Assembly: GCF_011290505.1 (NCBI RefSeq)
Contig: NZ_JAANPV010000003.1
Coordinates: forward strand, 186,001-250,000
Length of the DNA stretch: 64,000 nucleotides
Reading direction: 5' to 3'
Source: Paenalcaligenes suwonensis
GTDB taxonomy: Bacteria > Pseudomonadota > Gammaproteobacteria > Burkholderiales > Burkholderiaceae_B
Shown here: one piece after another, positions 9,150 through 33,830 of the stretch
How the letters are laid out: each line of letters starts with the position of its first letter
Numbering within the stretch: position 1 is the stretch's first letter
Notes under the pieces: generated by a model
Databases searched by the model: none
Told to the model about the DNA's origin: nothing
What the model saw: the letters and a program-made list of their open reading frames with translations, nothing else
Program-made: the position numbers and the translations under genes

Positions 9150-9180
9150 ACTGCGCCGTACTTTATTAGTACGGCGCAGT
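9150..9180 (-). terminator. Terminator after the racemase-family gene
   Basis: A perfect 12-bp inverted repeat (9150-9161 with 9169-9180) has a 7-base loop. On the minus strand it is followed by TGTTTTAT, so it mainly ends the transcript of the ABC/racemase unit. It also lies between two convergent genes. Confidence 0.7.
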
Positions 9181-9199: not shown

Positions 9200-10243
9200 T
9201 TAGCGAACAATAAAGCCCGCAGCTACAGGATCATCACGGTTGATTTCCCAACGTGCCGTTCCCAATACGCTGGCAGTACCTTTCACAGTTGGGCGTACGG
9301 CTCGCTTACCGTTAAGGTCCACCTCACCCAACAAGCAACCTTCAAATGTGCCGCTACCCAGCAAGCCTTCGGAGCGTATGGGTTGATTCATACCCATTTT
9401 TCCACGCGCTTCAAACATGGCCATCATGGCGCTGGTGCCTGTGCCGCCAGGAGAGCGATCTAACTGTCCCGCACTAAACACGTGCACGTTTTTGTACATA
9501 GCACCTTCAATCGTAGGCTGATGCCAGAAGGTAATAAAGTTCAAATCCGTAATATGTGCTTGGGTTGGGTGCTGTATGGGGTACACCGCATTAATCTGCT
9601 GGCGTGCTAGCAAACCCATCTCAATAAGCTCACGGCCGTTATCGGGCGAAATACGCAGATCACTTTTGCACAAATCGATGATGCCAAAGTAGTTACCACC
9701 CCATACGATGTCTGCATGCAGCACGCCATATTTAGGCAGTTCAATTTTGATATCTTGTGCTTCTACATAGGCTGGCACGTTTTCAAACTTAGTATGCAAT
9801 ACCTTTGCACCGTCGCTGGTGACTTCAGCCACAACCAAACCGGCTGTAGTTTCAAAACGTATGGTTGTCACGCCACTGGGATGACGAGGCACCATGCCAT
9901 GCGCCACCATTGCCATTGCCACAGCAATAGTGCCGTGACCACACATGTGCGAGTAAGTCTCACCGTCTATATAGATCAAACCAGCATCGTAATCAGGGCT
10001 GGATGGTGGTGTTAAAAACACCCCAAACATATCGTTGTGCCCACGAGGCTCACGCATTAATGCTTTGCGTACCCAGTCATAGTTCTGGGTAAGAAACTGC
10101 CTTTTCTCCAGAACGGTGGACTGCAAAGGATACGGAATGCCACTATGAATAATGCATAATGGCTCCCCTTCCGTATGCGTGTAAATTACATCAAATACAT
10201 CTGTAGTTTGCATTCCAATCAATGCAGGCGCTGGCATAGTCAT
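9200..10243 (-). CDS. Proline racemase-family protein (hydroxyproline epimerase/dehydratase-like) with a Cys/Gly active-site pair
   Basis: A 347-residue protein of the proline racemase fold (two alpha/beta lobes). The first catalytic Cys is present as Cys101 in MCGHGT. The second catalytic position, in the motif DRSPxGTGTSA, is Gly266 rather than Cys or Thr. Racemases and 4-hydroxyproline epimerases use Cys/Cys, and trans-3-hydroxyproline dehydratases use Cys/Thr, so this pairing points to a dehydratase-like or different chemistry (inference). The gene overlaps the last permease gene by 4 bases and is the last of a five-gene unit with a PotABCD-type importer. The natural substrate is therefore probably the imported compound, perhaps a hydroxyproline or betaine-like molecule. 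Confidence 0.82.
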   Translation of the reverse strand: MTMPAPALIGMQTTDVFDVIYTHTEGEPLCIIHSGIPYPLQSTVLEKRQFLTQNYDWVRKALMREPRGHNDMFGVFLTPPSSPDYDAGLIYIDGETYSHMCGHGTIAVAMAMVAHGMVPRHPSGVTTIRFETTAGLVVAEVTSDGAKVLHTKFENVPAYVEAQDIKIELPKYGVLHADIVWGGNYFGIIDLCKSDLRISPDNGRELIEMGLLARQQINAVYPIQHPTQAHITDLNFITFWHQPTIEGAMYKNVHVFSAGQLDRSPGGTGTSAMMAMFEARGKMGMNQPIRSEGLLGSGTFEGCLLGEVDLNGKRAVRPTVKGTASVLGTARWEINRDDPVAAGFIVR

Positions 10244-11028
10244 TTTTTATCACTCGCAAAAACATCCAAACCTATCGTTAAATCCAAAACCACAATAACA
10301 ATCAACGATATAAATATTGTTATTGCTGAAACGGCGGAAATCATTGGGTCTACGGAGTACTGCACGTAGTTAAATAACTGCACAGGAGTGGTGTTCAACG
10401 ACGCATTGGTATGGAACATGGACAGCTCCACGTTGATCCACGACGTAATGAAAGCGAAGAACGCACCCGACACAATGCCTGGTCGTATTAAAGGCAAGGT
10501 GATATATCTAAAAGTCATCCATGGTGTGGCTCCTAAGTCAGCCGAAGCCCGTTCCAACTGCAACTGACTGTCATCCAATAAGGCATACACAGCACGTATC
10601 ACAAAGGGAGTCACGATCACCACATGCCCCACCAACAACGACCAAAATGTTTGCGAAAACCCTAGCTGAGACGTGAACTGCAACAACGCAGAACCTATGA
10701 CCAAATAAGGCACAATCAACGGCGCATTAAACAAGCTCGCTAAAAAGTCTTTACCAAAGAAGGTCTCTCGGGCTGTGATCAGTGCAACAGATATGCCCAG
10801 AACAATGGCAATCACCGTGGCACAAAAGGCTAACCACGTACTCAAGATGAAGGCTTGTATATAGGCTTGGTCCTCGAACACTTTCACATACCATTGCAGG
10901 CTGATCCCTTCTGGCGGGAAACTTAAATAACTACTGGTGGTTAACGATGAACCTATGATCACCACCAGCGGCAAGATCAAAAACAAGATCACCAGAAAAG
11001 CAATTAATGACACTACGGTTCTAGCCAT
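10240..11028 (-). CDS. ABC transporter permease, PotC-type
   Basis: A 262-residue inner-membrane permease with six hydrophobic segments. The EAA-type loop (ASADLGATPWMTFRYITLP) contacts the ATPase. It belongs to the spermidine/putrescine/iron(III)-type importer class. It follows the other permease with a 1-base overlap and overlaps the racemase-family gene, so the whole unit is translationally coupled. Confidence 0.85.
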   Translation of the reverse strand: MARTVVSLIAFLVILFLILPLVVIIGSSLTTSSYLSFPPEGISLQWYVKVFEDQAYIQAFILSTWLAFCATVIAIVLGISVALITARETFFGKDFLASLFNAPLIVPYLVIGSALLQFTSQLGFSQTFWSLLVGHVVIVTPFVIRAVYALLDDSQLQLERASADLGATPWMTFRYITLPLIRPGIVSGAFFAFITSWINVELSMFHTNASLNTTPVQLFNYVQYSVDPMISAVSAITIFISLIVIVVLDLTIGLDVFASDKK

Positions 11029-11858
11029 TACGCCCTCCCCCCTGTGGTACGCCCTAGACGATTTGCAAAAGCGACCAACACCAAGGTAGCCACCAGCAAC
11101 ACAATGCTGAGAGCGCCCCCATAATTAAAATTAAAGACAGTGCTGTACTGCTGGAAGATCAACATAGACAACAGCGTTACTCGACCACCCGATAACAGCG
11201 CTGGCGTCACATACGCACTGACTGACAAGGCAAAGACCATCATTGCCCCAGATGCCAAACCTGGTATGGTTTGCGGCAAGTTAATAAACCAAAAAGTCTG
11301 CATGGGGTTCGCACCCAAATCTCGCGATGCGTATTCCAAAGAACGGTCCATATTGCTGATAGACGCACCAACCGAAATCACCATAAAAGGCAATAGGATG
11401 TAGACCAAACCAATCAAAATCCCGGTTTCGGTGCCTAACAACCGCAGTGGCGTATCAATCAACCCTAGGTCTTGCAGTGTTTTATTTAAGAAACCATTTC
11501 TACCCAACAGCACCATCCAGCCAAATGAACGAACAATATTGCTGGTAAACAAAGGCACTAACAGCAAGATCACCAAGGCACGACGCCATGCTTGGCTAGG
11601 CACAAGCCGCACAATAAACCACGCCAAGGGATAACCCAGCAGCGCACAAATAATCGTGGTGTACAGCCCCAGCTTTACCGTGACCCAAATCACACTCCAG
11701 TGATACTGATCCAGCAAAATTTCGCCATAATGCACAAGGCTAAAACTGTCCTCAGCAGTCAAGCTAGACAGCAGCACCACAGCTAGTGGAAACAAAAAGA
11801 AGCATGCAAAAAACAGGATGGGTACAAAAAGCAGCTTGGCTAAACTTGAATGACGCAT
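11028..11858 (-). CDS. ABC transporter permease, PotB-type
   Basis: A 276-residue inner-membrane permease with about six membrane segments and the EAA loop ASRDLGANPMQTFWFINLP. It pairs with the PotC-type permease to form the channel. It begins three bases after the ATPase stop. The final RTTGGRA tail is cytoplasmic and positively charged. Confidence 0.85.
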   Translation of the reverse strand: MRHSSLAKLLFVPILFFACFFLFPLAVVLLSSLTAEDSFSLVHYGEILLDQYHWSVIWVTVKLGLYTTIICALLGYPLAWFIVRLVPSQAWRRALVILLLVPLFTSNIVRSFGWMVLLGRNGFLNKTLQDLGLIDTPLRLLGTETGILIGLVYILLPFMVISVGASISNMDRSLEYASRDLGANPMQTFWFINLPQTIPGLASGAMMVFALSVSAYVTPALLSGGRVTLLSMLIFQQYSTVFNFNYGGALSIVLLVATLVLVAFANRLGRTTGGRA

Positions 11859-11861: not shown

Positions 11862-12896
11862 TTAGCCCTCCAGCGGACATGCCTTGCTGACATTTATCTG
11901 TATAAAGACTGTCTGGCCACTCTGTAGATGCAAGGTGTTTGCCCCCATGCTTCTCACCGTCACCTCTAGCTCGCCTGCTCGCAAAAAGAACATGCTGTGG
12001 CTACCCAAATTAACGATCTCATTAACCTGAGCTGCTACCCCATCTTTGCTATCCAGACTGATGCTCACATCCTCTGGGCGTACTAACAGCAACTGAGTCT
12101 GGGCATTGGCTTGCGGTACAGGTTGATGCGTTGCGGTTAGCCAGCACTGCGCGTCGTGATGGTGCACGGGGAAAATATTGACGTCACCAATAAACTCACC
12201 AACAAAACGTGTAGCGGGCTGGCTATACACCTCGTCACCCGTACCGATTTGTTCGATGCTGCCTTGGTTCATCACCACAATGCGATCCGACATCGCCAAT
12301 GCTTCTTCTTGGTCGTGCGTCACAAAAATGAAGGAGATTGCTAGTTTTTCCTGTAGTGCTTTTAGCTCCATCTGCATACGTTTACGCAACTTCAAATCCA
12401 ACGCAGACAAGGGCTCATCCAACAGCAGCAGTTTGGGTTTATTCACAATAGCGCGAGCTAACGCCACACGCTGACGCTGCCCTCCCGAAAGCTCTGACGG
12501 CATACGCTCAGCAAACCCCTCTAAACCCACTAGCTCTAAGGCTTCTAGCGCTCGCTGCTTGGCCTCTGCGGCCGGCACACCGGTACGCTGTGGCCCATAC
12601 ATCACATTTTTCACAATGCTCATGTGCGGGAACAAGGCGTAACTCTGAAACACTGTATTTAACTGACGTCGGTGTGCAGGCAGATACGTAATATCGGTAG
12701 CGTCATACACAATGCGACCACTGTCTGGATGCAAAAAACCCGCAATCGTGGTGAGCAGAGTTGTCTTGCCACACCCACTTGGGCCTAACAACGTCAAAAA
12801 CTCTCCAGGCATTACATCCAAATGAATGTCTCGTAACGCTCGATAATTGTTGGAATAGGTTTTGTTAATGCCTTGGATGGATAACAACGGCTTCAT
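11862..12896 (-). CDS. ABC transporter ATP-binding protein, PotA-type
   Basis: A 344-residue ATPase subunit with Walker [10 protein letters not shown] at residues 38-46, the Q-loop near 84, signature LSGGQ at 136-140, Walker B ending in Asp160-Glu161, and the switch His in VTHDQEE. A C-terminal TOBE-like beta domain (about 240-344) is typical of spermidine/putrescine and Fe(III) importers, and accounts for the length. It energises uptake by the two downstream permeases. The start at 12896 is 99 bases after the binding-protein stop; a stem-loop lies in that gap. Confidence 0.9.
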
Positions 12897-12995: not shown

Positions 12996-14024
12996 TTAGC
13001 GACGACCTAATTCACGGTTCCACGTATCGGTCATCTCGGCACGGGCTTGGTTTACTGCCGTCCAATCCGATAGGTTCAGCGTATCCACGGAACCGTTTAG
13101 CCCCCACGGCATACGCTGTTGCAAGGTATCTGGTAGCTCTACGCCTTTCACTGCAGGGCCTAGGTACAGTTTTTCTGCTAAACATGCCGCAGCCGCTGGA
13201 GTCATAGCCGCGTTAATAAACTGCTGAGCAGCTTCTGGGTGTGGGGCATTTTTGATTTGGTGCACGCGAGCATCCGTCGCCCATACTCCCTCTTTGGGCA
13301 CAGCAAAACCTATGGGCAGGCCTTTATCAGCTAAGTCCCATGCTCCCACGTTAAAGTGCGCCCCTATGACCGCTTCACCAGCCTGAAACGCATTGCTTGC
13401 TGCACCGGAGCTGTCGTAATACGAGGCCACATCCAGCTGTTTCAGTTTCGCCCACATAGGGCTCATATCTTGCGGCGTTGCGCCAAACATGTTTCCTAAG
13501 AACACCAAGAACGGAATACCCGATGAGTTCGCTGAGGATGGCAAGATGACAGCACCCGCGTATTGTTTATCCCATAGAGCCTCCCAACTCTCTGGGGCGT
13601 GCTGCACCTCACGTGTGTCGTAGGCTATACCTAATGAGTAATACCCAACGCTCACTGCAAAGGGCTGCCCATTAGCATGGTAAATAGCCTGCGGCTGCAT
13701 AGCACTCATGTTCGGTAACGCTGTGCTATCCAACGGCGCTAGCAACCCCTCTGCTTCGGCTACCTCACTAATCCCACCATCCAAGAACACCACATCCAGT
13801 ACCGGGCGTGCCGACTGCTGGCGCATTTTGGCCAAGCTGGTGGTGGAAGTACCAATTTCTGGAATCACACGAATACCGGTGGCTTGAGTAAACGGCTGAG
13901 CAATACACGCATCAAACGCCTCCCCCCAGTTACCGCCATACCAAGCCACACGCACTTCCTCGGCCTGAATACTTTGACTAAATAAGACTGCTCCCGCTAA
14001 GGCTGTGGCAAAACCTATTCTCAT
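12996..14024 (-). CDS. Periplasmic substrate-binding protein of a PotD/SBP_bac-type ABC importer
   Basis: A 342-residue exported protein. The signal peptide is residues 1-21 (MRIGFATALAGAVLFSQSIQA, with a cut before EEV). The mature part starts with the typical VRVAWYGGNWGEAFDACI strand/helix of the extracellular solute-binding family that includes PotD and Fe(III) binders. The ligand is not readable. AGGAG precedes the ATG at 14024. It is the first gene of the five-gene unit and is divergent from the GlxA-type regulator, with a palindrome in the 115-base spacer. Confidence 0.85.
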   Translation of the reverse strand: MRIGFATALAGAVLFSQSIQAEEVRVAWYGGNWGEAFDACIAQPFTQATGIRVIPEIGTSTTSLAKMRQQSARPVLDVVFLDGGISEVAEAEGLLAPLDSTALPNMSAMQPQAIYHANGQPFAVSVGYYSLGIAYDTREVQHAPESWEALWDKQYAGAVILPSSANSSGIPFLVFLGNMFGATPQDMSPMWAKLKQLDVASYYDSSGAASNAFQAGEAVIGAHFNVGAWDLADKGLPIGFAVPKEGVWATDARVHQIKNAPHPEAAQQFINAAMTPAAAACLAEKLYLGPAVKGVELPDTLQQRMPWGLNGSVDTLNLSDWTAVNQARAEMTDTWNRELGRR

Positions 14025-14089: not shown

Positions 14090-14139
14090 ACAATAACGAC
14101 AAAAAAATGAATTATTACGACACCCAAAAAGGAGCCTAC

Positions 14140-15150
14140 ATGGAGACAAACCTTGACGCTCACCCCACCCCGCTACGGGTGGGAATAGTCATTTTGGATC
14201 AGTTCACCCTTACGGCTTTTGCCGGTTTTCTGGATGTATTGCGCCTTGGCGGAGATTACGGTGGTCACAGCCGGCAAATACATGTGAAATGGGTGGTCAT
14301 GAGCATGGACGGCAAAGACAGAAGGTCGAGTGCTGGCACCTTAATGACCGAGCTACACCCGTTAATAGAGCCCGAAAATTTTGACTACATCGCCATTTGT
14401 GGTGGCAACAGTTATATAGAGCGCTCACCCTCTACGCCACTACTGCAGTGGCTACAAGACGCTGCTGCCAAGCAAGTAAGCCTGCTGGGCATTTGTACGG
14501 GCACCTTTGCTCTGGCGCAAGCTGAGCTGATTGGGTCGTTACCTGTGTGCGTGCATTGGAACGTAGTAGATGAGTTCTCTAAACGCTTTCCCTCTGCCAG
14601 AACCAGCGTAGACAGTCTATTTATTGATGCAGGCAAGATTATTACCTGCGCTGGCTCTACCGCGGCAATAGACCTCGCCTTGCACATACTCAAGCAGCAC
14701 TTTGGGCGCGAAAAAGCTCAACAGGTTTTGCGCCATATGATGTTGCACAACATACGACCAGCGCGACTGCCGCAAGCCCATTTCATCGCCAACTTGGACG
14801 GCATCAAAGATACGCGTATACACAAAGCCGTGCACTACATTGAACAGCGCATCGACGATAGGTTACGCGTGCAAGATATAGCCTCACACATAGGAATGAG
14901 TGTGCGGCAATTAGAGCGACTTTTTAAACAAGAACTCAACACCAGTCCCACCCGCTTTTATCAAAAGATGCGTGTGGAATATGGTAAATGGTGGCTGATG
15001 AATACCTCTGATAGCATCACGCAAATTGCCCTAAATTGCGGTTTTGCTGATACATCGCACTTTTCCAGAGAGTTCAAATTACACTTTAAGGTCAACCCTC
15101 AAAGCATACGCCAACACGCTACCACACACGCTGGCCCCTCTATGTTGTAG
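14140..15150 (+). CDS. GlxA-family transcriptional regulator (DJ-1/PfpI domain plus AraC HTH)
   Basis: A 336-residue regulator. Residues about 10-180 form a DJ-1/PfpI-like domain; the nucleophile-elbow-like stretch LGICTGTFALAQA keeps a Cys but is used for sensing rather than catalysis in this family. Residues about 230-330 are an AraC-type double HTH (DDRLRVQDIASHIGMSVRQLERLFKQ, then ITQIALNCGFADTSHFSREFK, both shown here only in part). The ATG at 14140 is chosen because AAAAAGGAG lies five bases upstream; a longer reading to 14005 would overlap the divergent gene. Relatives activate amino-acid, carnitine and choline-type catabolic operons, consistent with control of the adjacent ABC/racemase unit. 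Confidence 0.87.
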   Translation: METNLDAHPTPLRVGIVILDQFTLTAFAGFLDVLRLGGDYGGHSRQIHVKWVVMSMDGKDRRSSAGTLMTELHPLIEPENFDYIAICGGNSYIERSPSTPLLQWLQDAAAKQVSLLGICTGTFALAQAELIGSLPVCVHWNVVDEFSKRFPSARTSVDSLFIDAGKIITCAGSTAAIDLALHILKQHFGREKAQQVLRHMMLHNIRPARLPQAHFIANLDGIKDTRIHKAVHYIEQRIDDRLRVQDIASHIGMSVRQLERLFKQELNTSPTRFYQKMRVEYGKWWLMNTSDSITQIALNCGFADTSHFSREFKLHFKVNPQSIRQHATTHAGPSML

Positions 15151-22750: not shown

Positions 22751-24028
22751 CTATTTCTGATTAAACACATGCTGATCTATGGTCTGTATGCTTTGCAACA
22801 GCACCTTTAGCCCCGCTTCCATATGCGCTAGCTGTATACCCTCTTCGGGGCAGTGGCTACGGCCATTCAAGCACGGAATAAACACCATGCCTGCTGGCGC
22901 AATACCCGCCAAATACACGGCATCATGCCCTGCTCCGCTGGGTAAGCGTAAAGAGGGATAACCCAGTACTCCAGCCGAGTGCTCAATCCTATCCACTACC
23001 TCAGCATCAAAACGGGTGGGTTTACCGTGACTGACTGATTCGGTGTGCAGTTGTAGCCCCAGAGCCTGCAACTCTGGCTGTAGCATGCTAAATAGCTGTT
23101 CGCCATAATGCTCTACCACGTGGTCTTCATTGCTACGTATTTCTAGCATGAGCTCTACCTTGCCCGGCACCGCGTTAGAGGAATTGGGCATAACGGACAA
23201 ATACCCCACGGTAGATACCACATAGCGCTGTTCAGAGTTCATCTGTATGGCTTTCTGCTGGGTAGCTTGTATCAGTATGGCGGCCCCAACCAGTGCATCT
23301 TTACGGTGATCCATAGGGGTAGTGCCTGAATGATCAGGCTGCCCAGTAATGACGACTCTAAAGCGTCGTATTCCCACTAAGTCGGTCACTACACCAATAG
23401 GAATATCTTGGCGCTCTAGTACAGGCCCCTGCTCGATGTGCAGCTCCACAAAAGCATGTAAGTCACCCGAGCTATATAAAGGTTGTGTGAGTTGCGTTGG
23501 GTCTCCGCCCACTAATGTGATCGCCTCGGCCAAGGTACCTGCGCCCGAAGCTCGCTGCGCCAGCATGTCAGCACTTAACGCGCCTACCATGGCTCGACTG
23601 CCTACGCACGACACACCAAAATCGCTAGGCTCTTCAGACAAAAAATCCACCACCTCAAAAGGGTGTTCTAACTGTTGATTGCTATCGTGTAAGGCGTGAG
23701 CAACTTCTATTCCCGCTAGCACACCAAGAATACCGTCGTACCTACCGCCATCAAACACCGTATCCGAATGCGAGCCTGTCATGATGGGTTTGGCATGGGG
23801 TTGCGTCCCCTCTAAACGGCCTATCAGATTGCCACCACTGTCTATGCGTACCGACAAACCTGCTTGCTGCATTTGCTCGGTTAGCCACTCACGTGATGCC
23901 ATGAAACGTGGGCTAAACGCCCTACGTGTCCAGGGGCGATCCGGGTCAGTAAAGGTGGACAGCGTTTCTAAACGCTGCCATAAACGTTGACTGCTTAACG
24001 CTTGCATGGCTGTAAGGGTGTGACTCAT
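22751..24028 (-). CDS. M20-type amidase: allantoate amidohydrolase / N-carbamoyl amino acid hydrolase (AllC-like)
   Basis: A 425-residue binuclear-metal amidase. Metal ligands are visible in TGSHSDTVFDGGRYDG (His and bridging Asp) and SEEPSDFG (Glu), with further His in QPDHSGTTPMD and near the end in GRSHCPEE. A dimerisation domain at about 215-335 interrupts the catalytic one, as in AllC, UAH and beta-ureidopropionase. The family removes ammonia and CO2 from ureido groups. It is the last gene of the ureide operon and overlaps the preceding gene by four bases. Position next to AllA- and PuuE-like genes favours allantoate or a related ureido acid. Confidence 0.85.
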   Translation of the reverse strand: MSHTLTAMQALSSQRLWQRLETLSTFTDPDRPWTRRAFSPRFMASREWLTEQMQQAGLSVRIDSGGNLIGRLEGTQPHAKPIMTGSHSDTVFDGGRYDGILGVLAGIEVAHALHDSNQQLEHPFEVVDFLSEEPSDFGVSCVGSRAMVGALSADMLAQRASGAGTLAEAITLVGGDPTQLTQPLYSSGDLHAFVELHIEQGPVLERQDIPIGVVTDLVGIRRFRVVITGQPDHSGTTPMDHRKDALVGAAILIQATQQKAIQMNSEQRYVVSTVGYLSVMPNSSNAVPGKVELMLEIRSNEDHVVEHYGEQLFSMLQPELQALGLQLHTESVSHGKPTRFDAEVVDRIEHSAGVLGYPSLRLPSGAGHDAVYLAGIAPAGMVFIPCLNGRSHCPEEGIQLAHMEAGLKVLLQSIQTIDQHVFNQK

Positions 24029-25395
24029 ACAGTGCCCCCTGCTCGATGCGGCCGAATAAACTGCCCATCACCAGCGTGGTTGCGTACAGCAACACCATCC
24101 CACACCAATTGGCCTCGTAAGAAGGTAGCCGCCACTTTCACCATGAATTCGCGCCCTTCAAACGAGCTCCATGTCACCGCAGACAGGCTCTTGGCTGGGT
24201 CAAACACATAACGCTCTTGATCCACAATCACAAAATCGGCATCTGCCCCTGGATTCAAATGTCCTTTACGGTGTTCTAACAAGAAGTGTTTGGCAGGGCC
24301 CTCACACAGCAGTTGCACCACCATCGTGGGTGACAAACCATGCTCTATGCAGCCTGTCCATAAAGCTGGCAATAAAGTTTCCAAGCCCGGACCACCAGAG
24401 GAATTCTTAAACACATTGGGGTCTGATTTACGTTCTAAGCCCCAGCTCACGTGGTCAGAAGAGACGAAGGTGCATTCCCCATTGCCTATGTGAGTCCACA
24501 GTTTTTCTACTTCTGCTTTGGGGCGAATAGGTGGGTAATGCTTGGTTAAGGCACCAAAGCGTTTAGTGTGTTCCTCGTGATTTAGCATTAAGTATTGCAC
24601 GCAGGTTTCTATGCTGGCTGCTGTACCTGCTTGCTTATACATATTGCAAAGCTCAAAACCACGCGACAGCGATACGTGTACAGCGTGTGCTCTAGCCCCC
24701 GTTAATGCCCCTAACTCGTAAATAGTGGCCGTTGCCAAATTCTCTACTAGCGGTGGATGAGCACGTAAAAAGGCATCCCAACCCGTATCACCTTCTTCAG
24801 TCATGCGCAGAATGTTTTTACGTGTGATCTCCTGATTCTGATTATGCACCCCACACGCCAACCCCGACGGGGCGATTAGCCTAAATGCTTCGTACAACAC
24901 GTCCTCCTCTACACGAGGAAAACGATTAGGGCTGGCTTCGAACGTAGAAAACTTAAACGCGCAGGCACCACCCTCAATCAAGCCAGGTATAGCTTCTAAA
25001 CCATGTTCGTTATTTAAGGTGGCGTAAGCCGCCACATCCACATGACTGTCTTTTTCTATCAGTTGGATTTTTCTATCCAACTGGGGGCGTGAGGCCACGG
25101 GTTCGGGATCGTCATACGGCATTTCTACCATGGTGGTAATGCCACCTGCTGCTGCCGCTCGCGACGCCATTCCTATGCCTTCTTGATTAGCTTGGCTACC
25201 CGAGTGCACTTGCCCATCTAACACGCCAGGAATCACCCAGCGCCCTCTGGCATCCATAAACTCACGTGCAGCCGGTCGATTCGCGGCATCGCCAGTGGCT
25301 ACAACTTTACCATCACGCACGGCAAACCAACCATCAAAGCGTATGCGGTCTGCGCCCACAATATTGCCTTGTACCACCAAATCAAATTCACTCAT
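24025..25395 (-). CDS. Dihydroorotase/allantoinase-like cyclic amidohydrolase with altered metal motif
   Basis: A 456-residue cyclic amidohydrolase: a small beta domain made of both ends and a TIM barrel (about 55-390). The first metal motif, normally DxHxH, reads D60-G-Q62-V-H64, so one ligand His is Gln. The candidate carboxylated Lys (ACAFKFS), later His (HAVHVS) and Asp (SSDHVSW) are present. Members open hydantoin, dihydropyrimidine, allantoin or dihydroorotate rings. TAGGAG precedes the ATG. The Gln change may mean a single-metal enzyme. Activity is unproven; the neighbours argue for ring opening of a ureide. Confidence 0.8.
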   Translation of the reverse strand: MSEFDLVVQGNIVGADRIRFDGWFAVRDGKVVATGDAANRPAAREFMDARGRWVIPGVLDGQVHSGSQANQEGIGMASRAAAAGGITTMVEMPYDDPEPVASRPQLDRKIQLIEKDSHVDVAAYATLNNEHGLEAIPGLIEGGACAFKFSTFEASPNRFPRVEEDVLYEAFRLIAPSGLACGVHNQNQEITRKNILRMTEEGDTGWDAFLRAHPPLVENLATATIYELGALTGARAHAVHVSLSRGFELCNMYKQAGTAASIETCVQYLMLNHEEHTKRFGALTKHYPPIRPKAEVEKLWTHIGNGECTFVSSDHVSWGLERKSDPNVFKNSSGGPGLETLLPALWTGCIEHGLSPTMVVQLLCEGPAKHFLLEHRKGHLNPGADADFVIVDQERYVFDPAKSLSAVTWSSFEGREFMVKVAATFLRGQLVWDGVAVRNHAGDGQFIRPHRAGGTV

Positions 25396-25419
25396 TGTTG
25401 TCTCCTAGTTTCTGTGCGC

Positions 25420-26787
25420 TTAACGAGGTGCTCGTAGTGAAGGCAAGGCTTTATTGCTGGCCAGCAAACGCTCCCACGCTTGCGCTGTTGCATTTTCGGC
25501 CTGCTCTAATACCAACGCCTCGTCCATGCTTACTACCTTGCCGTCACGCATTAAGAATTCCCCTTCGACAATGACGGAGTCCACCACACCTGGATCGGCG
25601 TAATGCACAATGTTCGAAACAATCTGGTTTACAGGACGCATACGAGCATGCGCTAAGCTGATCAACGTCATGTCCGCCAGTTTACCTACCTCAATAGAGC
25701 CCAGTTCATCCACACGCCCTAAGGCCTGCGCCCCATTACGCGTGGCGCAATTCAGAATTTCTTGTGGCTGAGGTGTTACGCCACCTCCGGCACTCCCCCT
25801 ATGCACCACAATGCCAAACTGCATGGCTTTAAACATGTCTTCAGTCATGTTGTCGGTACCAAAAGCAATGTTTACGCCTTGCTTCATGGCATAACCCACT
25901 TTCACCTGATGCGGACCACGTCTGGAGGAGTTTGCTGGGCAATGTGCCATGTGCACGCCTTGACGGGCCAAAATATCAATGTCTGCTTCAGTGCAGTGTG
26001 TCCAGTGCGCCGCCGTTAAATCTGCATCTAGCCAGCCCTGATCCAACAAATACTCCACCGACGTTTTGCCCGTCAGTTGGTGTATTTGTTTCAGCTCAGC
26101 GCGCGACTGCGCCAAATGCACGTTACGCTTCACATTATGTTTATGCGCAATATCCAGTAGTTCTTTTAGCATCCACGGTGAGCAATTGTCGGGAGCATGT
26201 GATGCTACCTGACATTGGATACGCCCACCTTTGGCACCGTGATAACGCTCAATTAATGCCTCAGTACGGTCTAGGTATTGTTGGCCCCAATCTCGCTCAT
26301 AGTGGTATTCGCCAGAGGCCATTTTTAAGTTATGCGCATCCGCCCCCAACTCGCTAAACACCACACGCAGTCCAGTATCGACCACAGCATCCGCATAACT
26401 GCCTACAAAACGACTGGAATCGCTAACGGTAGTGGTGCCTGAACGTAATGCCTCTAAAGCCCCCAGCCTTGCCATCGCAGCACGCTCCTCTGGGGTCATG
26501 ATGAAGGTGATAGGCCCCATATAGCCATAGATCACCTCGCCCATATAGTCTTCAATGGTGCCGCGCATAACGGTAAGCACTAAATGCGTGTGCGAGTTAA
26601 TAAAACCAGGCAACAACGCTTTGCCTGTCGCATCAATACGCTCTACTGTGGGGTAACGCGCCAGAATATCGGCAGAGCGCCCTACCGCAGCAATTTTTCC
26701 ATCTACTACGGCCACAGCCCCATCATTGATAATCGTGCCCTTCTGGTCGCACTGAACTAGTGTTGCTCCGTGAATCACATATGTCAT
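25420..26787 (-). CDS. ATZ/TRZ-type amidohydrolase (aminohydrolase) 1
   Basis: A 455-residue single-metal amidohydrolase of the chlorohydrolase/deaminase group. His66 and His68 (NSHTHL), a His in KRNVHLAQS, the His of AHWTHCTE and the Asp of FGTDNMTED form the usual site. The family removes an amino or other leaving group from N-heterocycles (guanine, 8-oxoguanine, S-adenosylhomocysteine, s-triazines). The ATG at 26787 is chosen because AAGGAG lies seven bases before it; a longer reading adds ten unsupported residues. It lies 24 bases before the dihydroorotase-like gene. Confidence 0.85.
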   Translation of the reverse strand: MTYVIHGATLVQCDQKGTIINDGAVAVVDGKIAAVGRSADILARYPTVERIDATGKALLPGFINSHTHLVLTVMRGTIEDYMGEVIYGYMGPITFIMTPEERAAMARLGALEALRSGTTTVSDSSRFVGSYADAVVDTGLRVVFSELGADAHNLKMASGEYHYERDWGQQYLDRTEALIERYHGAKGGRIQCQVASHAPDNCSPWMLKELLDIAHKHNVKRNVHLAQSRAELKQIHQLTGKTSVEYLLDQGWLDADLTAAHWTHCTEADIDILARQGVHMAHCPANSSRRGPHQVKVGYAMKQGVNIAFGTDNMTEDMFKAMQFGIVVHRGSAGGGVTPQPQEILNCATRNGAQALGRVDELGSIEVGKLADMTLISLAHARMRPVNQIVSNIVHYADPGVVDSVIVEGEFLMRDGKVVSMDEALVLEQAENATAQAWERLLASNKALPSLRAPR

Positions 26788-26875
26788 GGTTGTCTCCTTT
26801 TTTAGGGCGCACGTCACCCTCCCGCTTTTTTGGGGATATCAGTTCATCAAAAAGAATCAGTACTGCGAGGAAATC

Positions 26876-27781
26876 CTAGGAAGGGGGATGCACTGTCATC
26901 CAGTGCCGTGCAATGTCTGCACGTCTACACACCCATACATCCTGTTTGGTGGCGATATGGTCTAAGAAACGGGCTAACCCCGCCGCTCTCCCTGCGTGCC
27001 CCGCTACGCGTAAATGCAACCCCACCGACATCATGCGCGGGGTATGTGCCGATTCCTCGTAGAGGAAATCAAAAGCATCACGCAAGGCCGTATAAAAGTC
27101 AGAACCAGACGCTAGGGCACCACGCATGAATTTAGTGTCGTTATTCACCAAACTGTACGGCACCACCAAATGCGAGCGTTGCTGCACATTCACCCAATAC
27201 GGTAGATCATCGTTGTAGGCATCTGAGTCATACAGCAGCCCCTCTTGCTCCACCACCAACCGGCGGGTGTTTGGACTAGGACCATAACGGCAATACCAGC
27301 CTTCGGCAGGTCTACCCAAGCTTTGCTGTATCAATGCCAAGGCTTGCTGTATGCGCGAACGCTCTTCATCCATCGCTAAACCCTGATGATGTTCCCACCG
27401 CAAACCGTGCGCACAAATATCGTAATTACGTTCATTAATTCGCGCACACGCCTCTGGGTGTCTCGCCAACGCCTGGGCACAGGCCATTACCGTTGCTGGC
27501 ATATTGCGCTCTGCCAACAACCTATCCAAACGCCAGAAGCCTACGCGGCTGCCATATTCAAACATGGACTCCGCCGCCAAATCACGCTGCCCAGCCACTC
27601 CTGCACCACCTTCGGTTAACGCGGATTCGGTAATGGCATCACCATCTACCACAGACAGTTCAGCGCCCTCTTCAAAGTTCAGGCAGAAATTAATAGCTAG
27701 ACGCGCACCACCCGGCCACTGTGCCTGTGGTGGTGTTGCACCATAGCCGATGAAATCACGTACAACCTCATGCTGGTTCAT
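26876..27781 (-). CDS. puuE: PuuE-type allantoinase / polysaccharide-deacetylase-fold amidohydrolase
   Basis: A 301-residue NodB-fold protein that closely follows PuuE allantoinase: DFIGYGATPP at the start, NFCLNFEEGAE, FEYGSRVGFWRL, a GHEICSHGYRW-like stretch (here YDICAHGLRW), NTRRLV, DSDAYNDDLPYW and MMSVGLHLR. PuuE opens allantoin to allantoate. The start at 27781 is preferred because GGGAGG and AAGGAC precede it; it overlaps the allA stop by 14 bases. With AllA and the AllC-like amidase this makes a full allantoin-to-glyoxylate route on paper. A related cyclic ureide is an alternative substrate. Confidence 0.8.
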   Translation of the reverse strand: MNQHEVVRDFIGYGATPPQAQWPGGARLAINFCLNFEEGAELSVVDGDAITESALTEGGAGVAGQRDLAAESMFEYGSRVGFWRLDRLLAERNMPATVMACAQALARHPEACARINERNYDICAHGLRWEHHQGLAMDEERSRIQQALALIQQSLGRPAEGWYCRYGPSPNTRRLVVEQEGLLYDSDAYNDDLPYWVNVQQRSHLVVPYSLVNNDTKFMRGALASGSDFYTALRDAFDFLYEESAHTPRMMSVGLHLRVAGHAGRAAGLARFLDHIATKQDVWVCRRADIARHWMTVHPPS

Positions 27782-28298
27782 GTCCTTTGGCCTCCCGTAA
27801 CACCCCCGACTGGTCATGAATTTCTATGGGCTGTGCCAAATCCATGAACACGTCGTCTTCCCCTTTACCTGTTAGGCTCATCACCACAATAAAATCGGCC
27901 TCATCATCCAAGATGGTCAACCCGTGGTGCCACACATTACGGGCATAACACACGCCCTGCCCTGGGCCTGCGGCAAACACCTTTAGGGTAGAGAGGTCGG
28001 GGTTACCATCTGCCTGCGCTGCACACACCACCACCAAATGCCTAAATTCGCGTGTAGGCAAAAAGGTCTGGGCCGAATAGGGGTGACGTTCTAAATGGCG
28101 CACCAACATGGGTAAATCGCGACGTCCTTTCACGCGGCGCAACCACAAGCTGGGCGAGGTTAAGTCGCAGGCTCTATCAAAGGCCTCTGGCACATAGTGC
28201 CTGCCTGGTACTCCGCCATACTCAATGACCCGACCATAGGGGCGGAACATCTCTGCGGATAAGGGCTCTACTTGTACTGCACGTAATTTATCGGTCAT
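27768..28298 (-). CDS. allA: Ureidoglycolate lyase
   Basis: A 176-residue cupin-fold lyase, slightly longer than E. coli AllA (160). Conserved stretches are PLSAEMFRPYGRVIEY at the start, DLPMLVRHLERHPYSAQTF and ARNVWHHGLTIL with the metal/substrate-binding His residues. It splits ureidoglycolate to glyoxylate and urea. The ATG at 28298 is favoured, with GGAG eleven bases upstream inside the GntR gene end; the two genes overlap by 11 bases. No urease gene is in the window. Confidence 0.87.
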   Translation of the reverse strand: MTDKLRAVQVEPLSAEMFRPYGRVIEYGGVPGRHYVPEAFDRACDLTSPSLWLRRVKGRRDLPMLVRHLERHPYSAQTFLPTREFRHLVVVCAAQADGNPDLSTLKVFAAGPGQGVCYARNVWHHGLTILDDEADFIVVMSLTGKGEDDVFMDLAQPIEIHDQSGVLREAKGHEPA

Positions 28299-28962
28299 GT
28301 TGTATGCCCACTCCAAAAGCAGCTAAGAACCCATCACGTATGTTGTCCAAGTGCTTCAACACGCTGGTATGTACGGCCTCGCGGTTGCGATCTATCATGG
28401 CCTGCACAATGCTTAAGTGTTCGTCATCGGCATGGTCGCCTCGACCCGGTACTCGCTCGATGTTGGACACACGTATACGTTTTCTGGCTTGGTCAATCAC
28501 ATCAGCAAGCGAACGGTTGCTGCAAAACTCGGTGATCAGATCGTGCACGTCATCCCCCTTACGCCAGCTTTCAGGACCACCTTGGTCCATCACATGGGGG
28601 TTGCTCAACTCTTCTCTCAGGTTATGTAAGCGTTGTTGGGGAATTCGCTCGACTGCCAACATGGCAGCTTCTGGCTCCAATAAACGCCGTATATACAGCA
28701 GTTCTAGAACCTCTCCTACACCGATTTCCCGCACCACCATTGCACCATTGGCTAAACGTACCAAGTAGCCCTCCCCCAACAGTCGGCTTAATGCGCTGCG
28801 TAGTGGAGTGCGTGACACACTCAAGGCCTCTGACAACCGGCGCTCATCCAACACATCGCCCGCAGCGAGTTCGCGATTTTCAATCCAATTCAACACATCG
28901 CGATACGTACGCTCCGTCGCGCTTAAGGCTGCTGTCGGCACAATTTTGGTTTTTTCACTCAC
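28288..28962 (-). CDS. GntR-family regulator, FCD (FadR-C) subfamily
   Basis: A 224-residue regulator with a GntR winged HTH at about residues 10-80 (AAGDVLDERRLSEALSVSRT and the PLRSALSRLLGEGYLVR helix) and an all-helical FCD sensor domain (about 90-215) with the expected metal-binding His and Asp positions (DDVHDLITEF). The start is GTG at 28960-28962, behind a purine-rich AAGAGAGAAAG. FCD regulators bind TnGTnnACnA-type palindromes; a perfect CTTGGTATACCAAG lies just before the first operon gene at 39141-39154. It lies within the ureide operon between the importer half and the enzyme half. Confidence 0.87.
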   Translation of the reverse strand: MSEKTKIVPTAALSATERTYRDVLNWIENRELAAGDVLDERRLSEALSVSRTPLRSALSRLLGEGYLVRLANGAMVVREIGVGEVLELLYIRRLLEPEAAMLAVERIPQQRLHNLREELSNPHVMDQGGPESWRKGDDVHDLITEFCSNRSLADVIDQARKRIRVSNIERVPGRGDHADDEHLSIVQAMIDRNREAVHTSVLKHLDNIRDGFLAAFGVGIQHDR

Positions 28963-29050
28963 TACTTTCTCTCTTTTTCTTGAGGTCCCATTGAACCTGG
29001 GAAATTATTCTGATCTGTCTCTGTCAGCCCCACTGCCCTGATTCTCCTAC

Positions 29051-30610
29051 TCAATCAATGGCACGATAAGGCCAGTGTTTTTTTCCACAATCTGCACAAT
29101 AGTGCGCATAAAACTGCTGCACGTGCGGTAATAACGCCTCGGAGAAGGCCTGACGTTCGTGCTCTGCCGGCGTCAATGGCTGCTTCAATTGATCTGCCAA
29201 CGCTTCCAAAACGGCCTGCTGATCCACCTTAACAAAACGTTTATCCGCGTAAATCACCTGCCCGTTTACCATCACGGTTTCCACAGCATTACGCTGTGCC
29301 CTATGTAAGATGGCATCCACCACGCTTACTACTGGATCCAAATACGGATAGCGCAATAACGCATCGTTAAGCAGCACCACATCCGCCGCTTTACCAACCG
29401 CCAACACACCAATATCTGCCGCAAAAGGCGTGCTGTTCGCGCCCCCTTCGGTCGCCATCTGCAAGACATCTTCTGCCGTAGGCACATCAGAAGGATCCAT
29501 ACCTGAAACACGATGCAAATGCTTCACCAAGCGCATCTCTTGCAGCATGTCACGGTCTTCATTAATACCAGCTTCATCAATACCCAGCGCAACAGAAATA
29601 CCGCGTTTCTGGAACTGCCGCCAAGGAGCGATGCCACTGCGCAAACGCAAGTTTGAACTGGCATTGGTGCACACCCCCACACCACGCTCGGCCAATAAAT
29701 CCAGCTCGTCTTCTTCTAGCCATACGCCATGCCCTAACGTCATTCTGGGATTTAGCAAGCCAAACTTATCCAGATACTTAACGGCAGAACCTCCGGTGCG
29801 GCGTCGAGCATACTCCCACTGATAACGTGTTTCCAGCAAATGCATATGCATACACGCTTGGTGCGTTTCCGAACACGCTGCCACACGTTCTAAGGCCTGA
29901 TCGGAACACCAATGCAAGTTTACTGGTGCCAGCTGTATACGTGCCAAAGGATGTTGTTTATAGCGCTGATGCAGCGTCTCGAATAGACTAAAGTTGTCTT
30001 CTAGCGGCATGTGCTGTGCGCTAGACCACTGCCTGAAGGCATCACCCAGCCCCGCAGGCAAACGCTGAGCAAACTGGTCGTCTGCTTCGTACACCAAACG
30101 GTTTTGATCCCGTAAACCATAGGAGTACGACACCCGCATACCCAGCTTGGCATAGGCCCCTATTACCGTATCTGCATAAGCACCAATTTGACTAATAGGC
30201 GGTAACACCCTGCCATGCAAATGCTGCACGGTAGTCACCCCAGAGGCCACCAGCTCGAATGCTGAATACAACGTATCGAGTTCAGGGTCTACTGTTCTAG
30301 CACGTAGTCGATGTGCCAACCACAGCTCTAATGGCAAATCGGGAGACCCCAACTGAAACGGCGTCACCCCTACATGATGGTGGCCATTCACCAAACCAGG
30401 AATCACTACATGGCTACCATCGCCTACAACTTGAGCCTCTGGATAACGTGCTCGTAACTGTTCCCAAGGGCCTAGGGCGACAATGCGCCCGGCCTCTTGG
30501 TACAGCGCAGCATTTTCCAGTAGCTCTACCTGATCGCGCCCCGTTACCTTACAGATGATGTAACGTCCACGTACCAGTGAGGCTGATGAAAAAGTCTGTG
30601 CAGTCGTCAT
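29051..30610 (-). CDS. ATZ/TRZ-type amidohydrolase 2, long form
   Basis: A 519-residue amidohydrolase with His77 and His79 (NGHHHVG), a His in MHMHLLETR, a His in LGHGVWL and the Asp of GIDEAG, fitting a mononuclear aminohydrolase site. It is about 60-70 residues longer than amidohydrolase 1. The added C-terminal tail ends in YCADCGKKHWPYR, with Cys505 and Cys508. The start at 30610 overlaps the binding-protein stop by four bases, so it is translationally coupled to the importer. Deamination or dechlorination-type hydrolysis of the imported heterocycle is the likely first step (inference). Confidence 0.82.
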   Translation of the reverse strand: MTTAQTFSSASLVRGRYIICKVTGRDQVELLENAALYQEAGRIVALGPWEQLRARYPEAQVVGDGSHVVIPGLVNGHHHVGVTPFQLGSPDLPLELWLAHRLRARTVDPELDTLYSAFELVASGVTTVQHLHGRVLPPISQIGAYADTVIGAYAKLGMRVSYSYGLRDQNRLVYEADDQFAQRLPAGLGDAFRQWSSAQHMPLEDNFSLFETLHQRYKQHPLARIQLAPVNLHWCSDQALERVAACSETHQACMHMHLLETRYQWEYARRRTGGSAVKYLDKFGLLNPRMTLGHGVWLEEDELDLLAERGVGVCTNASSNLRLRSGIAPWRQFQKRGISVALGIDEAGINEDRDMLQEMRLVKHLHRVSGMDPSDVPTAEDVLQMATEGGANSTPFAADIGVLAVGKAADVVLLNDALLRYPYLDPVVSVVDAILHRAQRNAVETVMVNGQVIYADKRFVKVDQQAVLEALADQLKQPLTPAEHERQAFSEALLPHVQQFYAHYCADCGKKHWPYRAID

Positions 30611-32205
30611 TTTTTCTTAACCGTTTCCAAATGCCATGCCAAGCCAAAGGCGGAAGGTGTCCAGCTTTTTACCCTTGGCCCCACTGCAGTGACCTCATAA
30701 CGCAAGGCCACTGGATAACTATTAAATTCACCATAGAGTTGGTGATTCAATTGCTTCAATTCCGCATCCAGTTCTTCTAAGGTAGTGAGCGAAATCAACT
30801 TATCCCATTCCGCATCAATTTTTGGCAGGTTCCAATAGCCTTGGATCAGACCACCTTTTTCTTGGCTAATGATTCCCACACGCAGTGCTGGAATCACAGA
30901 CGGTCGTGGCGCACCGGCATCCAAATACAGGTGAGCACCGTAATTGGTTTCCCATTGCTGTGGGCTTGAGGCATAACGCGGTCTAAACGCTCCAAACTCC
31001 ATAGGCGTCACTTCCGTTTTGAAACCCGCAGCACGTAAGTAACCGTCCACCAAATCCATAATCTCTGGTGCTTCAGGCATGGCATTAGTACGTACTGACC
31101 ACAGTTTTACCGGCGTACCGTCATAGCCAATTTTCTTCAGCAACTCTGCAGCACGTTGCGGATCATACTTATAGGGCTCAAGTGCGGGGTCATACCCCAG
31201 AGAACCTTCTGTCCAGTAAGCTGTTGCTAAGCGTTCGGCCGTACCTTCGGGGTAGATGCTTTTCATGATGGCATCCATGTCGATGGCTCGCACCAGTGCT
31301 TCACGGAAGTCTTGCTGATGACACAGCATTTCTTCCTGCCAGCACCCGTAGAACGATAGCCCTCCTTTAGAGGACCCACGGTTAGTCAAAATATCCAGCT
31401 TGGCTGCTTTGGCATCAATCACCTGACGAGGATCAATAAATGCCATGTCGGCTTCACCGGCTCGCACCATAGACAAACGTGTGCTGGCCTGACTACGTGG
31501 AATTAACCGTAACTCTGCAAAATCAGGAATACGGGTTGGATCCCAGTACGACTCATTGGCTGTCAGCAACATATCAACGCCGCGATTAAACTCGGCGAAC
31601 TTCCAAGGCCCTGTACCAATAGGCCCTGCAATCATCTCAAACCCCTCTGCGGTAGGCTTAAAGTTGTGGCGAGGTAGTATGCGAATGTCGCCATCACGCG
31701 CGCTTAGCACGGCCATAAAAGATGGATCCGGCTCTTTTAACACTATCTTAACGGTGAGATCATCCTCGGCTGTCACCGTGTCTATCACTTGCAGCAAACG
31801 GCAAAACGTGCAGATGGCATCCTTTGCCACATAGCGCTCACCCAAGCTAAACACCACATCGTCTGCGGTGAAAGGCTTGCCATCGTGCCACAGCACATTA
31901 GGACGCAACGTAATGGTGAAGACTTTAGCACCATCATCCATCGTCCACGATTCAGCCAAACCACGCTCGGCCGCTAGTTGACCATTAGGCGCCGTCCCAA
32001 TTAAGGGTTCATTGGTGTGACCGGTGTACTGCAAGTCTTGCGTAGAGGTTTTGCCCATATCCAGCATTTCTCTACCAAAGTTAGGTACCACTACCGTTAG
32101 CGTACCTTCGGGTGCAGCCACCACAGGCGAAGTCTGTACCAAGGCTCCCAGCGTCAACACCGTAGCCCCTAACAGCTTGCTCAACATATTCAGATTCGTA
32201 TTCAT
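30607..32205 (-). CDS. Oligopeptide-type ABC substrate-binding protein, copy A
   Basis: A 532-residue SBP_bac_5 protein. The signal peptide ends near residue 30 (PVVA, cut before APEG). The mature part has the family pattern GRLAAERGLAESW-like and HDGKPFTADDVVFSL. It is a clear paralogue of copy B just upstream (most positions identical by eye). Both share four Cys, in CTFC and in GCWQE-MLCHQQ, probably two disulfides in the periplasm. The ligand is unknown. It ends four bases into the amidohydrolase 2 gene. Confidence 0.87.
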   Translation of the reverse strand: MNTNLNMLSKLLGATVLTLGALVQTSPVVAAPEGTLTVVVPNFGREMLDMGKTSTQDLQYTGHTNEPLIGTAPNGQLAAERGLAESWTMDDGAKVFTITLRPNVLWHDGKPFTADDVVFSLGERYVAKDAICTFCRLLQVIDTVTAEDDLTVKIVLKEPDPSFMAVLSARDGDIRILPRHNFKPTAEGFEMIAGPIGTGPWKFAEFNRGVDMLLTANESYWDPTRIPDFAELRLIPRSQASTRLSMVRAGEADMAFIDPRQVIDAKAAKLDILTNRGSSKGGLSFYGCWQEEMLCHQQDFREALVRAIDMDAIMKSIYPEGTAERLATAYWTEGSLGYDPALEPYKYDPQRAAELLKKIGYDGTPVKLWSVRTNAMPEAPEIMDLVDGYLRAAGFKTEVTPMEFGAFRPRYASSPQQWETNYGAHLYLDAGAPRPSVIPALRVGIISQEKGGLIQGYWNLPKIDAEWDKLISLTTLEELDAELKQLNHQLYGEFNSYPVALRYEVTAVGPRVKSWTPSAFGLAWHLETVKKK

Positions 32206-32234
32206 TTGTCTCTTCCGTATCGTTGATTTTTGGT

Positions 32235-33830
32235 TTATTGCGCATCATTGCGACGTACGGTTTCAAGGTGCCAAGCAAATCCATAAGGGGTAGGCGCCCA
32301 GCTCTGTACACGCGGTCCAGCTACCGCTACTTGGTTACGCATCACTACGGGGTGGAAACTGTATTCGCTGTAGACCTGACGGTTAAGGTCTCGTAAGGCC
32401 ACATCCAGTTCTTCCAATGAGGTCAAGCTGCTCAGGTGATCCCATTGCTGATCCATCCACGGCATATTCCAGTAGCTTTGAATCAACCCTCCTTTTTCAT
32501 GGCTGATCATGCCCACCTTAAGATTAGGCATGATGGTGGGACGCGGACCTGCACCATTTAAGTACAAATGTGCCGCGTAATTGGTTTCCCAGCGCTGAGG
32601 GCTGGAAGCATAACGGGGGCGAAATGCCCCAAACTCCATTGGGGTAACTTCAGTTTTAAACCCTGCTGCACGCAAGTAACCATCCACCAACTCGATAATC
32701 TCAGGAGCTTCTGGCATGGCATTGGTGCGCACTGACCACAACTTCACTGGCGTACCGGTATAGCCAATTTCTTTTAGAATCTCGGCCGCACGAGCTGGGT
32801 CATACGCATAGGGTTTGAGTGCTGGATCATCACCTAGCGACCCTTCTGTCCAATACACCGTTGCTAAGCGCTCCCCCGTTCCTTCGGGGTAAATGCTTTT
32901 AATTACGGCATCCATATCAATGGCTTTCACCATGGCTTCCCTAAAAGCCTGTTGGTGACACAACATCTGCTCTTGCCAGCACCCATAGAAAGACAACGTG
33001 CCCAAGGCAGAACCTTTAGCCACCAATACATTCAAGCCTGCATTCTTGGCCTCTATGACTTGGCGAGGGTCCACAAATGCCATGTCTGCTTCACCTGCTC
33101 GTACCATGGCCAAACGTGTGCTGGGCTGACTACGTGGCACTAAACGTAGGGTTTCAAAATCGGGGACGCGATCAGCATCCCAGTATTCCGTATTCGCCGT
33201 CAGCAGCATTTCCATGCCGCGCTCAAAGTTTTTGTATTTCCATGGCCCGGTACCTATAGGGTCACCGACCATTTCATAGCCGCCCTCTACCTTCTGATAA
33301 CCATGACGAGGCAACATGCGGATGTCGCCATCCCGGGCAGTGAGTACGGCTAAGAATGCAGGGTCTGGCTCTTTAAGCATGATTTTCACCGTGTGATCAT
33401 CTACCGCTTCCACTTGCTCTACTTGCTCTAACTGCTTGCAAAATGTGCATACCGCATCGGGCGCCACAAAACGCTCGGTCAAACTAAACACCACATCGTC
33501 TGCGGTGAAGGGTTTACCATCGTGCCACTTCACCCCCTCGCGCAAATTCAGTGTGTAGGTACGAGCGTCTTCACTCATGGACCAACTTTTCGCCAACCCG
33601 CGCTCCGCCGATAGCTTTCCATCCACATCTGCCCCAATTAAGGGTTCGTGTATGTGGCCGGTATATTGCAAATCTTGGGTAGAGGTTTTACCCAAATCCA
33701 GCACCTCACGGCCAAAGTTAGGCACTACTACGGTCAAGGTCCCTTCGGGGGCGGCTTGCACCACCGTAGCCGTCATAGAAAGCCCCGCTAAAAACAAGGC
33801 GGCTGATAGTTTTTTAAATGTCATTGTCAT
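32235..33830 (-). CDS. Oligopeptide-type ABC substrate-binding protein, copy B
   Basis: A 531-residue SBP_bac_5 protein with a signal peptide of about 26 residues (ending VVQA, cut before APEG). It shares the whole length with copy A, including the CTFC and GCWQE/MLCHQQ Cys pairs and a nearly unchanged central part (KLWSVRTNAMPEAPEI, VTPMEFGAFRPRYASSP). GGGGAG precedes the ATG. The 29-base spacer to copy A and the shared strand point to a tandem duplication. The two may bind related ligands for the same permease. Confidence 0.88.
   Translation of the reverse strand: MTMTFKKLSAALFLAGLSMTATVVQAAPEGTLTVVVPNFGREVLDLGKTSTQDLQYTGHIHEPLIGADVDGKLSAERGLAKSWSMSEDARTYTLNLREGVKWHDGKPFTADDVVFSLTERFVAPDAVCTFCKQLEQVEQVEAVDDHTVKIMLKEPDPAFLAVLTARDGDIRMLPRHGYQKVEGGYEMVGDPIGTGPWKYKNFERGMEMLLTANTEYWDADRVPDFETLRLVPRSQPSTRLAMVRAGEADMAFVDPRQVIEAKNAGLNVLVAKGSALGTLSFYGCWQEQMLCHQQAFREAMVKAIDMDAVIKSIYPEGTGERLATVYWTEGSLGDDPALKPYAYDPARAAEILKEIGYTGTPVKLWSVRTNAMPEAPEIIELVDGYLRAAGFKTEVTPMEFGAFRPRYASSPQRWETNYAAHLYLNGAGPRPTIMPNLKVGMISHEKGGLIQSYWNMPWMDQQWDHLSSLTSLEELDVALRDLNRQVYSEYSFHPVVMRNQVAVAGPRVQSWAPTPYGFAWHLETVRRNDAQ

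Follow-up and report, generated by a model that had tools for sequence, protein, structure and literature searches.

What reaction can an enzyme of the proline racemase family carry out when the second of its catalytic positions is occupied by glycine? The window analyzed here, a 64,000-nucleotide stretch of Paenalcaligenes suwonensis (GCF_011290505.1, NZ_JAANPV010000003.1, positions 186,001 to 250,000), encodes such a protein. It is a member of PF05544, scoring 302.7 bits in a profile search against a cut-off of 27. Its predicted structure (mean pLDDT, 94.7) has as nearest solved structures the proline racemases and the Thermococcus litoralis hydroxyproline dehydratase, with Z scores of 48 to 49; a structure search matched the model to 1w61_B over 334 residues (Z, 49.1; rmsd, 1.7 Å) and to 6r76_A over 340 residues (Z, 48.5; rmsd, 4.2 Å). 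The gene and its key codons are as follows.

9200 to 10243, minus strand: proline-racemase-family enzyme with Cys101, His254, and Gly266, ATG start, 347 amino acids, last gene of its operon (open reading frame and profile search)
9446 to 9448, minus strand: codon 266, GGC (Gly), at the site of the second catalytic cysteine, TcPRAC Cys300 (alignment to solved homologues)
9482 to 9484, minus strand: codon 254 (His), at the site of the pocket residue TcPRAC V288 (alignment; position counted from the gene start, 10243)
9941 to 9943, minus strand: codon 101 (Cys), first catalytic residue retained, TcPRAC Cys130 (alignment; position counted from the gene start, 10243)

Codon 266 is the ggc at 9448 to 9446 in gat-cgc-tct-cct-ggc-ggc-aca-ggc-acc (DRSPGGTGT, minus strand), and Cys101 sits in YSHMCGHGT, which bears out both residues named in the initial annotation. 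That annotation also held that glycine cannot serve as an acid-base, and we agree; judged from the sequence, the second catalytic function is absent at position 266.

The Cys/Cys pair of proline racemase is therefore lacking, and the protein scored well below the NCBIfam models for proline racemase (NF010576, 295.1 bits versus a cut-off of 556) and 4-hydroxyproline 2-epimerase (NF010578, 260.2 versus 376; NF052296, 169.3 versus 450; NF010577, 139.7 versus 442), as well as below two further models (272.1 versus 540 and 190.4 versus 550). The Pseudomonas aeruginosa homologue Q9I489 is presumably PA1255. It is listed as Ser/Cys in the available text of PMC1964878, and Cys101/Gly266 lies outside the known pairs as described in the available text of PMC4113996. 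The initial annotation gave these pairs as Cys/Cys, Ser/Cys, and Cys/Thr, all of which exist, and omitted Ser/Thr (PMC4113996, available text). Because the pair differs and no NCBIfam equivalog cut-off was reached, the protein should not be filed as a proline racemase, a 4-hydroxyproline epimerase, or a trans-3-hydroxyproline dehydratase, although a dehydratase-like function may still be possible.

Comparison with close relatives settled whether the glycine is real. All of C101, H103, H254, G266, and G293 were identical in 58 of 58 distinct sequences examined at 70% or greater identity to the window protein, and because these relatives agree, a sequencing error at 9446 to 9448, the flaw against which the initial annotation had warned, is excluded for practical purposes. 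Decay of the window gene to a pseudogene was rejected as well, given an open frame and the strict retention of the checked residues in the same 58 sequences. Separately, in one same-family relative (G036) the gene is broken and split between two short frames (L014/L019; G036:C41:2340-2616).

Within the same family, 48 of 268 genomes contained a match at 76% or greater identity over nearly the whole protein, and samples of the class (369 genomes) and phylum (349 genomes) yielded nothing above 37% identity besides the window itself. Scanning the genome collection for the pattern DRSPGGTGT returned at least 118 stretches. Among the matches listed (118 loci), 52 held a Cys/Gly protein with MCGH as in the window protein, 55 held one with MCGA instead, and 11 held a partial protein or none. 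The 52 MCGH loci among the matches listed include Achromobacter, Bordetella, Cupriavidus, Pseudomonas, Halomonas, Marinobacter, Azospirillum, Paracoccus, Bosea, and a few Bacillales. In 164 representatives less than 85% alike, only five residue pairs occurred (C/C, 58; C/G, 57; S/C, 20; S/T, 15; C/T, 14), with C/G over-counted since Gly sequences had been sought by pattern.

Two trees were used to follow the pair through the family. On a quick tree of the 164 rows, which omitted the alignment columns for residues 101, 103, and 266, 6 changes were needed to account for Cys/Gly, at least 4 of them forced by starred branches. A careful tree of 64 rows, similarly Gly-enriched and built without columns 101, 103, 254, 266, and 293, gave 2 changes for the MCGH type and 3 for the MCGA type, the latter turning up in three places among the Cys/Cys and Ser/x groups. 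A single-origin Cys/Gly subgroup was rejected because several origins appear on both trees, both alignments being Gly-enriched. By these trees Cys/Gly is widespread and arose several times, and it is therefore no isolated change. The 27 window-type rows of the careful tree grouped together with moderate support (84/72) and probably represent one clade.

The sister of this clade consists of two Stickland-type proline racemases (97/90), Acetoanaerobium 7pb3 and a Ligilactobacillus protein encoded beside prdAB. The window protein is 36% identical to 7pb3 and, like the Stickland-type enzymes, keeps Phe73, Phe256, His103, and Asp262. Unlike them, it has Gly for the Cys300 equivalent, His254 for Val, and Gly293 for Ser, and its gene lies in an importer operon instead of beside D-proline reductase genes.

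Glycine was seen in none of the 14 PDB sequences, from 17 homologous ones, in which the pair was inspected (8 C/C, 1 C/T, 3 S/T, and 2 S/C; 7qpo, Cys/Thr, was taken from text, and 4q60 and 4k7x were left out). Some proteins of an earlier proline-racemase-family study are reportedly listed in UniProt as being without the standard activities. The Cys/Gly pair is widespread in public genomes, and no description of it was found in the literature searched, a body of text that excluded Tables 1 and 2 of PMC4113996 and the supplement of PMC5144071, either of which could hold an assayed Cys/Gly protein. The motifs DRSPGG and RSPGGTG were likewise not mentioned in the literature searched, and "Cys-Gly" in the available text of PMC4364671 fits the motif names Met-Cys-Gly-His and Pro-Cys-Gly-Thr.

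The genes around the enzyme, overlooked by the initial annotation, bear on its function. The operon and its flanks are as follows.

9150 to 9180, minus strand: terminator-like hairpin of 13 pairs followed by a T-rich tail, about 20 bases past the enzyme stop (hairpin scan)
10240 to 11028, minus strand: PotC-like ABC permease, 4-base overlap with the enzyme gene (open reading frame and profile search)
11028 to 11858, minus strand: PotB-like ABC permease (open reading frame and profile search)
11862 to 12896, minus strand: PotA-like ABC ATPase with a TOBE_2 domain (open reading frame and profile search)
12996 to 14024, minus strand: PotD-like substrate-binding protein (SBP_bac_8), first gene of the operon (open reading frame and profile search)
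14107 to 15150, plus strand: divergent GATase1-AraC regulator of the GlxA/GbdR type (PF01965 and HTH_18)

The hairpin likely marks the end of the operon; in the region as a whole, such sites show no excess over shuffles. The regulator frame as listed starts at GTG 14005, with ATG 14107 or 14140 the more likely start, and the protein scored 206 bits against a GbdR model with a cut-off of 480. Among five same-family relatives (20 kb each), importer genes were upstream of the enzyme gene in all five (PotC not separately called in L023) and the regulator was recognized in three. On plasmids of Bosea, Azospirillum, Shinella, and Ensifer, a GlxA regulator, an ABC transporter, and a proline racemase family protein are annotated together. 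The layout of importer, one enzyme, and regulator is kept across Alpha- and Betaproteobacteria. Thirty loci among the pattern matches listed were at 70% or greater identity; 4 of these start inside the enzyme gene or no more than about 130 bases from it, which makes them uninformative, and Pot permeases were directly upstream in 26 of the 26 others. Among the 22 more distant loci in the matches listed, a DctM-like TRAP gene adjoined the enzyme in 11 and a Pot set in 2. An importer and a single enzyme thus stay linked even as the kind of importer changes; one enzymatic step seems enough for entry into general metabolism.

This setting also speaks to whether the protein turns over anything at all. 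A sensor, a decoy, or a decaying gene could be imagined from the loss of one catalytic residue and from the broken copy in G036, but the open frame, the strict residues of the 58 close relatives, and the permeases at all 26 informative loci among the matches listed make it very improbable.

The substrate pocket provides a second set of clues. Residue 254 aligns with TcPRAC V288, one of 22 residues that define the ligand pocket according to the available text of PMC6224121. Against that list the window protein is identical at 15 of 22 places, including His103 and Asp262, and differs at seven (S98, H99, N235, F236, H254, S257, and G266), so the pocket should still be of the type that accepts a proline-like ring and carboxylate, more polar and with one thiol fewer. 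In the 164-row alignment, His254 was found in 26 of 28 MCGH Cys/Gly rows (the others having Tyr and Val) and in none of the remaining 136 rows, and 51 of the 52 MCGH loci among the pattern matches listed have it. Elsewhere, position 254 is Val in 56 of 58 C/C rows and Cys in 14 of 14 C/T rows, and thus tracks catalytic class. Gly293 follows a similar course (27 of 28 MCGH Cys/Gly rows versus 10 of 136 others), and Ala103 occurs only with Gly266 (29 of 29 rows).

These patterns, which lay outside the initial annotation's focus on the residue pair, raise the rival that we take most seriously, in which His254 is a relocated second acid/base. Cys101 and His254 would then form a racemase, an epimerase, or an anti-eliminase (of cis-3-hydroxy-L-proline, for example) in which Cys101 would be the base and His254 the acid. 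The histidine would lie on the strand of the ligand-contacting Phe256, two residues away, at a listed pocket position, with Gly266 and the Ser293-to-Gly change making room for it, and a racemase would also explain how an importer and one enzyme suffice. The association of His254 with Gly266 is suggestive and falls short of statistical proof: because it has in effect one evolutionary origin, coupling cannot be separated from hitch-hiking by statistics, and the three other Cys/Gly origins, of the MCGA type, have Val or Leu at 254. On balance a catalytic His254 appears distinctly unlikely; an equally doubtful corollary is a new architecture in which the second catalytic role has passed from a residue of the DRSP-C loop to His254, within an import-and-convert operon found across Proteobacteria.

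Our tentative preference, held at slightly less than even confidence, is that Cys101 works as the single base of a lyase that dehydrates an imported L-substrate resembling 3-hydroxyproline. The substrate, reaction, and part played by His254 that we infer would fit together as follows. The ABC importer would supply a zwitterion that resembles proline and is probably hydroxylated; once the cleft has closed, Cys101 would remove the alpha-proton of the L-configured substrate; and a beta-substituent, most likely a 3-hydroxyl, would depart to leave an enamine/imine. From 3-hydroxyproline the product would be pyrroline-2-carboxylate, which reductases encoded elsewhere could convert to proline. Compared with proline racemase, His254 and Ser257 would give a more polar pocket, and they may bind the leaving group or donate a proton to it.

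Ordinary racemization is unlikely because, with Gly266 at the site of TcPRAC Cys300, the opposite face has no thiol that could return a proton to the carbanion. In the available text of PMC4113996, the first residue acts in the trans-to-cis direction (L form) and the second in the cis-to-trans direction (D form), the Ser/Thr dehydratase uses the first catalytic residue, and both Cys/Thr and Ser/Thr enzymes dehydrate trans-3-hydroxy-L-proline. The human Cys-to-Thr enzyme also dehydrates, according to a review (PMC8142540, available text), and P. aeruginosa HypE no longer epimerizes once its second Cys is replaced by Ser (PMC1964878, available text). A one-base eliminase is the simplest reading because enzymes without the second cysteine dehydrate and the HypE mutant loses epimerization; by analogy with these relatives, dehydration or a different substrate, the options named in the initial annotation, were sensible suggestions.

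Comparisons with characterized groups only partly favor the one-base lyase. Like the Cys/Thr enzymes (T. litoralis 6r76/6r77 and human L3HYPDH 7qpo) and the Ser/Thr enzyme (4k7g), the window protein has the same fold and keeps the first catalytic residue without a second cysteine. It also shares Ser98 with 14 of 14 C/T rows, a residue found in 0 of 2 ProR rows and 0 of 56 other C/C rows, but within the window's own branch Ser98 is present in 12 of 27 rows and is lost outside the closest clade. Unlike the C/T enzymes, it has Gly rather than Thr, His254 for Cys, and Phe73 for Tyr, and Phe73 is a ProR-type residue said to restrict hydroxyproline in the available text of PMC1964878. Unlike both C/T and S/T enzymes, it lies on a separate branch, grouping with Cys/Cys proline racemases away from the Cys/Thr dehydratases, and its operon has no reductase gene. 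The 4-hydroxyproline 2-epimerases (Cys/Cys; Ser/Cys) share the fold, the first catalytic position, and the DRSP motif; in contrast to them, the window protein lacks the second Cys and has Phe236 where 53 of 56 C/C rows have His, and no oxidase, deaminase, or alpha-ketoglutarate semialdehyde dehydrogenase gene was found among the ten operon and flank proteins scanned. Lhp clusters resemble the locus in joining a proline-racemase-family gene to putative hydroxyproline importer genes, but the window protein is Cys/Gly and its gene is outside any Lhp cluster.

Candidate reductases are available elsewhere in the genome, where two OCD-family proteins exceed NCBIfam cut-offs for pyrroline-2-carboxylate reductase families (426 versus 322 bits and 341 versus 266 bits). 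Among 24 hand-chosen genomes, PF02615 was present in all 12 that carry the gene and in 9 of the 12 that lack it, and PF02423 in 11 of 12 and 10 of 12, respectively; because both are common either way, finding them makes the route possible and does not decide the matter. In G257, a genome that carries the gene, neither of the candidate reductases exceeded a specific cut-off, a point against the lyase. In its favor, a separate Cys/Gly lineage in an Anaerolineales MAG (L184 767-1780 and 3-698, minus strand) adjoins an ornithine-cyclodeaminase-family open reading frame on the same strand. This protein is perhaps a separate Cys/Gly dehydratase, and it says little about the window's branch because it lacks His254 and its OCD frame is below specific cut-offs.

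Neighbors of other relatives point toward a different chemistry, in which the substrate would be something bulkier than hydroxyproline, admitted by Gly266 and Gly293, that undergoes a 1,3-proton shift or a beta-elimination driven by Cys101. An FMN-dependent alpha-hydroxyacid-dehydrogenase-like gene adjoins the enzyme in L092 and L137, a DMSP-demethylase-like GcvT protein (384.5 bits, below the cut-off of 410) in L190, and an FAD oxidoreductase with a peptide-type importer in L025. The isomerases PrpF and PhzF have the same wider fold, and the seven departures from the 22-residue TcPRAC list (PMC6224121, available text) would suit a changed ligand. We nevertheless regard this explanation as unlikely: the family's carboxylate and ring-nitrogen binders (Cys101-Gly102-His103, Asp262, and Gly267-Thr268) are kept in 12 of 12 clade-a rows, as are Phe73/Phe256.

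Several other observations may be of use. In the MCGA type of Cys/Gly protein (L097, L128, L089, and others), Ala replaces a His said to contact the ring nitrogen; one MCGA branch adjoins ProXVW importers, GlxA regulators, and Rieske-like and oxidase/DHDPS/aldehyde dehydrogenase genes, and the two members scanned were over the NCBIfam 4-hydroxyproline epimerase cut-off. The type is possibly devoted to N-methylated (betaine) hydroxyproline. In Izhakiella australiensis (L109 2140-4244, minus strand), two proline-racemase-family genes lie in tandem with overlapping frames, and each encodes a Cys/Gly protein with MCGA. Elsewhere in the window, 22751 to 39256 (minus strand) holds a long cluster of genes that by eye are amidohydrolase-like, M20-amidase-like, AllA-like, and deacetylase-like, together with Dpp/Opp-like ABC genes and a tandem pair of paralogous substrate-binding proteins of the peptide type, and 50352 to 57312 holds what by eye is an ectoine-like set (amino-acid-type ABC importer and hydroxylase-like, EctB-like, EctA-like, and MarR-type genes).

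Because the Gly change and the pocket histidine are kept throughout an importer-linked branch, the window protein is probably an uncharacterized enzyme of a known family, neither an error nor an ordinary racemase. Records for this branch carry only the name "proline racemase family protein," suggesting a reaction that finds no support in the residues. Enzymes of this family serve as a standard model of how the choice between racemization and elimination can hang on one catalytic residue. The Cys/Gly branch, which is large and conserved and in which a pocket histidine has been inherited along with the glycine, provides a natural test of that model, and its operon of a substrate-binding protein and one enzyme provides an easy route to the substrate.
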